From contig JAQWQF010000006.1 of assembly GCA_029244935.1 (NCBI GenBank), positions 35,093-99,092 of the forward strand: a stretch of 64,000 nucleotides of DNA, read 5' to 3'. The stretch comes from Methylophilaceae bacterium. Lineage in GTDB: Bacteria > Pseudomonadota > Gammaproteobacteria > Burkholderiales > Methylophilaceae. The notes under the pieces were generated by a model. That model was not told where the DNA came from and did not search any database. It saw nothing but the letters and a program-made list of their open reading frames with translations. The translations under genes were made by a program, and so were the position numbers. This document shows, piece by piece, positions 1-2,495 of this stretch (its first letter is position 1; each line of letters begins with the position of its first letter).

Positions 1-776
1 ATACGTAAACTTAATGTTTCTAAGCCCTTTAAGAACACCCATGCATTAAATGCGCTCATTGTTGGGCCAGCAGATCGTAAAAAAGAATAAACTTCCTTCA
101 TGTCATTCTTATTTCCTAATACGGCACCTCCAAGGCATCTCCCCTGACCATCTATATATTTTGTTGCTGAATGAATAATAATATCAGCACCGAATAAAAT
201 AGGCTTTTGAAGTGCTGGTGTACAAAAGCAATTATCAACAATTAACTTAATGTTTGATCTGTGAGCTATTTCCGCGAGAGATTTTATATCGCAGATCTCA
301 GTAAGTGGATTTGATGGGGTTTCTACAAAAAATAGTTTTGTATTCTTCTTTATTGCATGAGACCATTCATCTAAATTGGTAAAATTAACATATGTAACAT
401 CTAAGCCCCACCGACACAAAATGTTATTTAAGAGCTGAACAGATGTACCAAAAATACTTTTTGATATTACTACATGATCACCACTAGAACAAAGTGACAT
501 AAAGCAAGCCAAGATAGCAGACATCCCACTAGAAGTTGCTACACATTTTTCAGCTCCCTCCAGAGTAGCAAGACGCTCCTCAAACATTTTTACAGATGGA
601 TTTGTAAATCTAGAGTAAACATTTTCTTCCTCGGAACCTGAAAATCGATCGGAAGCTTCTTTAGCATTCTTAAACACAAAACTTGAAGTTAGGAATAAGG
701 CCTCTGAATGCTCTCCCTCTCCAGTCCTTATTGTTCCAGATCTAATGGCATCAGTGTTAAATTTAGTTTTATTCAT
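1..776 (-). CDS. metZ: O-succinylhomoserine sulfhydrylase (Cys/Met metabolism PLP enzyme), 3' end truncated by the window edge
   Basis: Minus-strand translation from ATG at 776: MNKTKFNTDAIRSGTIRTGEGEHSEALFLTSSFVFKNAKEA...SGMSAILACFMSLCSSGDHVV...VETPSNPLTEICDI...HSATKYIDGQGRCLGG; PLP-lysine motif SATKY present. Not in the ORF track because it runs off the edge. Confidence 0.9.
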   Translation of the reverse strand, partial: MNKTKFNTDAIRSGTIRTGEGEHSEALFLTSSFVFKNAKEASDRFSGSEEENVYSRFTNPSVKMFEERLATLEGAEKCVATSSGMSAILACFMSLCSSGDHVVISKSIFGTSVQLLNNILCRWGLDVTYVNFTNLDEWSHAIKKNTKLFFVETPSNPLTEICDIKSLAEIAHRSNIKLIVDNCFCTPALQKPILFGADIIIHSATKYIDGQGRCLGGAVLGNKNDMKEVYSFLRSAGPTMSAFNAWVFLKGLETLSLR

Positions 777-811: not shown

Positions 812-841
812 AAAAAAAAACCCGTTCAGCTATGACGGGTT
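812..841 (-). terminator. Intrinsic terminator in the metZ leader (SAM-II expression platform)
   Basis: Minus strand AACCCGT-CATAGCTGA-ACGGGTT followed by T's: perfect 7-bp stem (835-841 / 819-825), 9-nt loop, 9-nt T run including the stem end. Confidence 0.85.
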
Positions 842-846
842 ATCAT

Positions 847-900
847 CGCTTTAGCTGTTATTTTTATAGCGCCCGCAAGCTGTTATCTTCAAATCGGCGC
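847..900 (-). ncRNA. SAM-II-type riboswitch aptamer upstream of metZ
   Basis: Minus strand GCGCCGATTTGAAGATAACAGCTTGCGGGCGCTATAAAAATAACAGCTAAAGCG. P1 GCGCC/GGCGC; GATTTGA, GCTTGC and AGCTAAA blocks in the same order and spacing as the SAM-II consensus; GCTT/AAGC pseudoknot pairing possible; sits in front of a methionine biosynthesis gene. Confidence 0.85.
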
Positions 901-907
901 TTTTTGT

Positions 908-936
908 ATTATGAGGAAAATTATGTTGTGCGTCAA
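908..936 (-). promoter_or_regulatory. sigma70-type promoter for the metZ leader
   Basis: Minus strand TTGACG (931-936) - 17 bp - CATAAT (908-913), placing the start site just before the aptamer. Confidence 0.75.
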
Positions 937-947
937 GATACATTAAG

Positions 948-2495
948 TTATGCATGCTCTTGACCAAGCTCCTCGACTGATGAATTAATTAAATTCAAAT
1001 CAAGTTGTGCAGAAGAGTTTGAGGCTCTTTCTTTAGTCGAGTTTTCAGCTCTTCTCGATTCAATCTTACGTAGATAAGTATCATCAATATCACCAGTAAT
1101 ATATTTTCCATCAAAACATGAACAATCAAAATCCGTTAGTAAAGAATTTTCGTGGGTAATATTAGATTTTAAATCTTCCAAACTTTGATAAATCAGACCG
1201 TCAGCACCAATTTCATTGCTAATTTCTTTATCATTTTTCTCAAAAGCGATTAACTCGTTAAGCGTTGGCATATCAATACCATAAACATTAGCATACTTTA
1301 CGGGTGGGGCTGCTGAAGCAAAATATACATTGTTAGCCCCTGCATCACGCGCCATCTGTACAATTTCTCTAGACGTTGTTCCTCTAACAATAGAGTCATC
1401 AATCAATAAAACATTCTTATCCTTAAATTCAAATTTAATAGGATTTAATTTCTGACGGACCGATTTTTTTCTAAGTGCTTGGCCTGGCATAATGAAAGTT
1501 CTACCTATATATCTATTCTTAATAAATCCCTCACGAAAGTCTACTTTTAGATTTTTTGCCACCTGTTGCGCACATGGTCTACTGGTATCTGGTATTGGAA
1601 TAACTACATCTATCTTAATATCACTCCATTCCTTTTTGATTTTTTTTGCTAGTGTTTCACCCATATTTAGTCTTGTTTGATACACAGAGACCCCGTCAAT
1701 CATTGAATCGGGCCTTGCTAAATATACATATTCAAAAATACATGGGGACTTTAATGCGGAAGGGATACATTTCTTAGAATAAAAATTCCCATCCAGATCA
1801 ATAAAGATTGCCTCACCAGGTTCAACGTCTCTTAATAATCTAAAGCCTAAAACATCAAGGGCAACACTTTCAGATGCCACCATATACTCAGGACCATCCT
1901 GAGTTTCATTAATACCAATTACTAACGGCCTGATACCATGTGAATCTCGAAATGCAACTAAACCAAAATTAGCAACCATTGAGACTACCGCGTATGCTCC
2001 TTGGCACCTTTTAAAAACTGTAGTTACAGCATCAAAAATGATACCAGAAGTTAATACATTTTTTTGAGTTGCTTGCTCAATTGAGTGAGCTAAAACGTTT
2101 AATAGAACCTCAGAATCTGAGTTAGTATTGATATGCCTAAGATCTTGCTTAAAAATATCTTCTTTTAATCTATCAGCATTTGTTAAATTCCCATTATGAC
2201 CAAGAACAATTCCATAGGGAGAATTTACATAAAGAGGTTGAGATTCAGCATTTGATGAGGATCCTGCAGTTGGGTATCTTACATGGCCTATTCCAGCATT
2301 ACCAACAAGATTTCTCATATGCCTAGTGTGGAAGACATCCTTCACATAACCATTATTTTTATGCATATAGAAACGACCTTGGTCAGAGGTAACAATTCCT
2401 GCTGCATCTTGGCCGCGATGTTGAAGAACTAATAAGCCGTCGTAGAGCATCTGATTTACTGGTTTATTAGCTACAATACCTATAATTCCGCACAT
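948..2495 (-). CDS. purF: Amidophosphoribosyltransferase
   Basis: MCGIIGIV N-terminal nucleophile Cys; PRPP motif VLLIDDSIVRGTT. Confidence 0.97.
   Translation of the reverse strand: MCGIIGIVANKPVNQMLYDGLLVLQHRGQDAAGIVTSDQGRFYMHKNNGYVKDVFHTRHMRNLVGNAGIGHVRYPTAGSSSNAESQPLYVNSPYGIVLGHNGNLTNADRLKEDIFKQDLRHINTNSDSEVLLNVLAHSIEQATQKNVLTSGIIFDAVTTVFKRCQGAYAVVSMVANFGLVAFRDSHGIRPLVIGINETQDGPEYMVASESVALDVLGFRLLRDVEPGEAIFIDLDGNFYSKKCIPSALKSPCIFEYVYLARPDSMIDGVSVYQTRLNMGETLAKKIKKEWSDIKIDVVIPIPDTSRPCAQQVAKNLKVDFREGFIKNRYIGRTFIMPGQALRKKSVRQKLNPIKFEFKDKNVLLIDDSIVRGTTSREIVQMARDAGANNVYFASAAPPVKYANVYGIDMPTLNELIAFEKNDKEISNEIGADGLIYQSLEDLKSNITHENSLLTDFDCSCFDGKYITGDIDDTYLRKIESRRAENSTKERASNSSAQLDLNLINSSVEELGQEHA

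Follow-up and report, generated by a model that had tools for sequence, protein, structure and literature searches.

The metZ leader described here is very likely a SAM-responsive switch of the SAM-II type that would stop transcription at high SAM, and sequence comparisons suggest that this switch occurs widely among Beta- and Gammaproteobacteria. It is of a known type and not a new kind of switch, and it corresponds almost certainly to the "metXZ" RNA of Leyn et al. 2014, judged by gene, taxon and architecture (PMC4239095). We consider it highly probable that this SAM-II riboswitch controls metZ through transcription attenuation, and the attenuation mechanism put forward in an earlier sequence-only reading of the locus is supported by our analysis. 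The basis is a conserved architecture, covariation in P1, an invariant pseudoknot core, covariation of the antiterminator in relatives and a predicted bistability; SAM as the ligand, the sign of the response and the kinetic competition are inferred.

Features of the metZ leader

The window, i.e., the whole stretch of 64,000 nucleotides that was analyzed, originates from a Methylophilaceae member, a methylotroph of marine waters that belongs to the OM43 group, so that the sequence-only reading was right in suspecting a betaproteobacterium. Its genus is OM43-like and includes beta proteobacterium KB13 and Methylophilaceae LSUCC0401. The attenuator leader lies complete on the minus strand between purF and metZ. 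The latter gene runs past the window edge, with an open frame of 409 codons in the genome. The features of the locus are as follows.

3 to 776, minus strand: metZ, O-succinylhomoserine sulfhydrylase (NCBIfam PRK08133, 445.8 bits with the partial protein)
812 to 825, minus strand: terminator 3' arm ACGGGUU (825 to 819) and U tract (T's at 820 to 812)
826 to 834, minus strand: terminator loop CAUAGCUGA, in which UAGCUG (827 to 832) is the predicted 3' strand of the antiterminator
835 to 841, minus strand: terminator 5' arm AACCCGU, whose CGU is predicted to double as part of the antiterminator
847 to 859, minus strand: AACAGCUAAAGCG, the 3' box, which is the 3' strand of P2 (GCUAAA invariant); CAGCUA within it (852 to 857) is also the predicted 5' strand of the antiterminator
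869 to 873, minus strand: P1 3' strand GGCGC, supported by the aligned family leaders
875 to 882, minus strand: CAGCUUGC, 5' strand of pseudoknot P2 (UUGC invariant), pairing with GC-U-AA of the 3' box
890 to 895, minus strand: GAUUUG, whose uridines would form the third strand of the SAM-binding triplex (T11 to T13 and G14 invariant and A10 present in at least 90% of 37 family leaders)
896 to 900, minus strand: P1 5' strand GCGCC, pairing with 869 to 873, with compensatory changes in relatives
908 to 936, minus strand: sigma-70-type promoter TTGACG-17-CATAAT
948 to 2495, minus strand: purF, the upstream gene (TIGR01134, 515 bits)

The sequence-only reading had listed the promoter, which is present base for base at 936 to 908, and the aptamer hallmarks (P1, GAUUUG, CAGCUUGC and AACAGCUAAAGCG), all of which were found on the minus strand at the coordinates above. 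Its terminator hairpin AACCCGU...ACGGGUU also stands, but the adjoining run of nine T's had to be corrected, as two of the nine sit in the stem. The promoter begins 12 nt after the purF stop. A promoter at such spacing was found in 63 of 97 family leaders, compared to 1.5 expected from shuffles, nearly always 3 to 6 nt before the end point of the scan just upstream of P1. The predicted transcription start in the window is at P1 or just before it, and in most relatives, too, the promoter is so positioned that transcripts would start with the aptamer. The linkers of the window copy are short and AT-rich.

Scanners for -35/-10 elements and terminators were uninformative as stand-alone evidence. 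A simple terminator scan of the leader did not pick up the hairpin, since the scan permits loops of 3 to 8 nucleotides and the loop here has 9. Folding of the full leader yielded a z-score of only -1.8, and the element would therefore not have emerged from folding alone.

In the proposed mechanism, the transcript would start at the aptamer or just before it. With SAM bound, the 3' box CAGCUAAA would be locked in the P2 pseudoknot/triplex, the AACCCGU...ACGGGUU hairpin with its U tract would form and transcription would halt ahead of metZ. At low SAM, CAGCUA would pair with UAGCUG once the terminator loop emerges, with GCG/CGU stacked inside, and the 5' arm of the terminator would be retained in this antiterminator for as long as RNA polymerase has not cleared the U tract.

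The complementarity of UAGCUG (827 to 832) and CAGCUA (857 to 852) is exactly as had been claimed. An extension of this pairing by the flanking ATGA/TCAT, proposed at the same time, was not obtained by folding: RNAfold instead extends the antiterminator with GCG/CGU, by which it occupies part of the terminator 5' arm. An exact 6-nt complement to the box arose by chance in 0.3% of shuffles of the 9-nt loop, and the complementarity of loop and box is preserved across about 230 loci.

When growing transcripts were folded, the antiterminator CAGCUA/UAGCUG with the inner GCG/CGU was predicted between about positions 829 and 821, and the terminator took over at 819. At the U tract, with P1 in place, the two structures were nearly tied (-19.9 versus -20.4 kcal/mol, 0.5 kcal/mol apart), and most of the relatives that were folded followed the same order of events. 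In several relatives, among them G005, G025 and G027 of the genus, the pseudoknot-free fold of the full-length leader kept part or all of the box paired, which means that energies alone miss the balance. The predicted folding series fits a switch whose outcome would depend on whether SAM has secured the box in P2 by the time the loop appears.

Predicted antiterminator pairing in related leaders

The covariation between box and terminator loop that the sequence-only reading had anticipated was found in relatives. Among 213 related leaders in which an aptamer was recognized, 200 have a terminator after it, and the loop of this terminator, or the 5' edge of the loop, is complementary to the 3' box. 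The box/loop duplex had a mean energy of -10.0 kcal/mol; shuffled loops gave -6.35 kcal/mol (standard deviation [SD], 0.18), and loops swapped between leaders gave -9.2 kcal/mol (SD, 0.11). Since GCUAAA itself is invariant and cannot covary, covariation was sought in the flanks of the box. In the window's register (CXGCU/AGCYG), X and Y form a Watson-Crick pair in 36 of 54 leaders versus 19.6 ± 3.2 in shuffles, a count that was reached in 0 of 20,000 shuffles; these shuffle tests ignore kinship, and support comes from several separate lineages together with the changes in register.

In the register GCUAAA/UUURGC, rare changes in the next two bases are matched by changes in the loop. Thus, the changed box GCUAAACG faces the loop CGUUUGGC (G058), GCUAAACAG faces CUGUUUAGC (G766 and G781, before metK), and CUAAAACG faces CGUUUUAG (G459). 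Within the genus of the window, the tandem-bearing relatives described below have the box CUGCUAAA and the loop UUUUAGCA, corresponding to CAGCUA and UAGCUG in the window. A further relative with 84% MetZ identity (G009, locus L040) has a 7-pair antiterminator, CUGCUAA/UUAGCAG, by compensatory change. Its U tract is degenerate, and it is perhaps a switch that is losing its terminator.

Along the aptamer, the excess of complementarity over shuffled loops is highest at the 3' box, and a second, smaller peak lies over CAGCUUGC. This second peak, seen across relatives, is what would be expected if aptamer and terminator were real but the antiterminator were formed by the loop and the 5' P2 strand rather than the 3' box, an arrangement that we consider improbable. 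At many loci the terminator loop also complements CAGCUUGC, some loops, such as GCAAGCUGA (e.g., L242), are 9-nt complements of it, and in the window CAGCU (882 to 878) can pair with AGCUG (831 to 827). However, this pairing is the weaker one in the window, with 5 instead of 6 pairs and a greater distance between the strands; the excess over shuffled loops amounts to -2.6 kcal/mol compared to -3.6 kcal/mol at the 3' box, and the flank changes follow the 3' box.

Proposed assignment to the SAM-II class

An Rfam search of the window at the gathering threshold yielded no match. Below it, SAM_alpha (RF00521) matched over its full model length at 910 to 830 on the minus strand with 25.1 bits, under the cut-off of 36 (E = 7e-4 for all 4227 families and 251 bases). 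The covariance-model hit foreseen by the sequence-only reading was obtained where it had been expected and on the expected strand, at a score short of the Rfam threshold. Matches of Trp_leader, sRNA and snoRNA families in the leader were dismissed as sub-threshold chance matches or terminator look-alikes, and SAM-V (RF01826) was absent from the Rfam matches to this metZ leader stretch.

We collected metZ leaders from 105 genomes of the family and found the aptamer in nearly all of them; 37 representative leaders were aligned, and a covariance model (R1) was built from these metZ leaders. Most core letters are invariant in the alignment. The P1 pairing holds for 99.5% of cells, and two of its pairs show compensatory changes in relatives (GC to AU and CG to UA). 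The pseudoknot P2 core UUGC/GC(U)AA forms four pairs in 37 of 37 leaders, its invariance leaving no room for covariation. The window and the aligned leaders have the third-strand uridines of GAUUU and the A's of GCUAAA that are described as SAM contacts, the corresponding U's touching SAM in the solved structures of SAM-II and SAM-V (PMC6061858). P2a is paired in 89.6% of cells in the family, where other members carry CUC/GAG, and is reduced to a single C-G pair in the window, with a competing inner stem that fits equally. In long-loop relatives, the ACUC strand of P2a could instead pair with GAGU inside the loop. SAM-V works with two P2a pairs (PMC6061858).

R1 had matches in 211 of the 300 genomes from the order and 110 of the 229 from the class, as well as in a few genomes outside the class. 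At L009, L010, L366, L374 and L384, in five genomes, R1 and above-cut-off matches of Rfam SAM_alpha (45.2, 38.4, 39.0, 38.3 and 39.2 bits, respectively) mark the same place, a coincidence that links the window copy to SAM-II. The Rfam cut-off was reached by 2 of 61 relatives, so that, set against the R1 matches in the order, most beta-proteobacterial copies are missed by it. The view held in the sequence-only reading that SAM-II occurs mainly in Alphaproteobacteria is outdated, given the literature (PMC2258182, PMC2704228) and the order- and class-wide matches.

The genes seen downstream of the element are metZ, metX, metH and metK, all belonging to the methionine/SAM pathway; it is their position that suggests control by the element. 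The SAM synthetase gene metK is preceded by a SAM-II element and terminators at L234, L238 and L240 in the order and at L381 and L384 in the class. At five loci of the order (L023, L275, L320, L324 and L024), a second aptamer-like sequence, e.g., GCCGATTTAAGCAACAACTTGCAGGGCGG, is located just past the first terminator, a possible tandem of SAM-II elements. Bp2_287, an Rfam family for a Burkholderia sRNA candidate, gave a sub-cut-off match to the opposite strand of the element at L122 and L080 and may be an antisense reading of it.

Should metXZ be a class separate from SAM-II, the ligand might be a SAM-related compound other than SAM, e.g., SAH or homocysteine. Leyn et al. set metXZ apart from SAM_alpha and named no ligand (PMC4239095), but the nucleotides that hold SAM (UUU of the third strand, UUGC and GCUAAA; PMC6061858) are kept in the aligned family leaders and homologous loci exceed the Rfam SAM-II cut-off, making a ligand other than SAM very unlikely in our view. 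Hardly credible is a constitutive terminator, e.g., for the purF transcript, that leaves metZ without SAM regulation through the hairpin: the hairpin is located 107 nt past the purF stop and intergenic terminators are common, but promoter and aptamer intervene between the two, aptamer and hairpin recur before metX, metH and metK in other neighborhoods, and the complementarity of loop and box is kept by compensatory changes.

metZ leaders within the genus

The 26 metZ leaders of the genus were sorted into four arrangements. Eight, including the window, have SAM-II followed by a terminator (degenerate in G009). Eight others (L050, L051, L054 and L056 to L060, including KB13 and LSUCC0401) have SAM-II without a terminator, and the ribosome site follows immediately on the box (GCTAAACTGAGGA), which suggests that control shifted from transcription to translation within one genus. 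In four leaders (L045, L046, L047 and L049), SAM-II and its terminator are followed by a SAM-V-like aptamer at the metZ ribosome site, with the sequence AGGTG...CCAA(A/C)TTGC...CACCT, GACA/TGTC and GCTAAA. The remaining six (L052, L053, L055, L061, L062 and L063) have the SAM-V-like aptamer alone (GGGTGAATTTAGTCCAACTTGCTCCACCC...GCTAAAAAGGA). P1 is common to the SAM-V-like aptamers and shows a compensatory AU/GC change, and a CC/GG pairing covers the ribosome site in them. Rfam SAM_V had no match at the SAM-V-like metZ loci tested; near-identical elements elsewhere in the genus match RF01826 with 25 to 33 bits, below the cut-off of 41.

In the MetZ tree, the terminator type is basal, each of the other arrangements occupies one side of a branch, and the tandem and SAM-V-like-only types are sisters (100/97). 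From this one gene tree, the series reads as SAM-II giving way to a SAM-V-like switch via a tandem intermediate. On the whole, we think it probable that metXZ is the SAM-II of Beta- and Gammaproteobacteria and that metZ in this genus records a succession from SAM-II, acting first by a terminator and then at the ribosome site, through the tandem to replacement by the SAM-V-like element. The genus thereby offers natural constructs before one gene, i.e., terminator, ribosome-site, tandem and SAM-V-like forms.

SAM-V-like elements were also observed directly before small uncharacterized ORFs in OM43-like genomes (L355 with two copies, L354, L356, L357 and L358), and a tmRNA match is also present at L353 and L354. 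The ORFs following these elements had no Pfam match and a marginal PHROG match only. A phage origin of the elements was considered and rejected, as there was neither an exact match in viral_contigs nor a useful family match of the ORFs.

Comparison with known systems

SAM-II terminators in Beta-proteobacteria were already noted in 2007, when the gene-control mechanism of SAM-II was described as not established (PMC2258182). The window element resembles SAM-II (RF00521) in P1, GAUUUG, the UUGC/GCUAAA core, the methionine-pathway gene and the terminator after the aptamer, and it differs from it in a score of 25.1 bits at a cut-off of 36, an almost absent P2a and the short, AT-rich linkers. For the SAM-II riboswitch before metZ of S. 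meliloti, high SAM in cells leads to less read-through metZ mRNA and more of the terminated sRNA RZ (PMC9373788). The window likewise has SAM-II and a terminator before metZ, but S. meliloti is an alphaproteobacterium, and the likeness is drawn from the published description of its switch. The SAM-II/SAM-V tandem of Pelagibacter (PMC2704228, PMC9481103, PMC11508383) resembles the metZ leaders of the four tandem-bearing genus relatives; the window, in contrast, has the first unit only, and Pelagibacter belongs to a different bacterial class.

Our searches of the literature found the term metXZ in no other paper than that of Leyn et al., and they returned no description of metXZ as SAM-II, of a sliding antiterminator register or of a within-genus series from SAM-II through a tandem to a SAM-V-like element. 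In their 2014 paper (PMC4239095), Leyn et al. report SAM_alpha in Rhizobiales and Rhodobacterales only and, separately, the metXZ RNA, with a pseudoknot, a terminator and a proposed antiterminator but with no ligand given, before metZ of three Methylophilales, Nitrosospira and Thiobacillus and before metXW of other beta-proteobacteria. The family of the window shares the taxa and genes, the pseudoknot, the downstream terminator and the proposal of an antiterminator. As published there, metXZ differs in being called novel and apart from SAM_alpha, in an antiterminator guessed from other regions and in a terminator whose sequence is described as not conserved. The conserved metX or metZ leader with a terminator in beta-proteobacteria including Methylophilales, by which metXZ is recognized, was found in the family-wide leaders and the order-wide matches. 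Covariance-model, core and gene-context evidence suggests that metXZ is SAM-II, and SAM is thus the probable ligand for an RNA that has been without one since 2014. To the published systems, our analysis adds this identification of metXZ with SAM-II, the series within the genus and a specific, covarying antiterminator pairing whose register slides between lineages and by which the SAM-II expression platform becomes testable.
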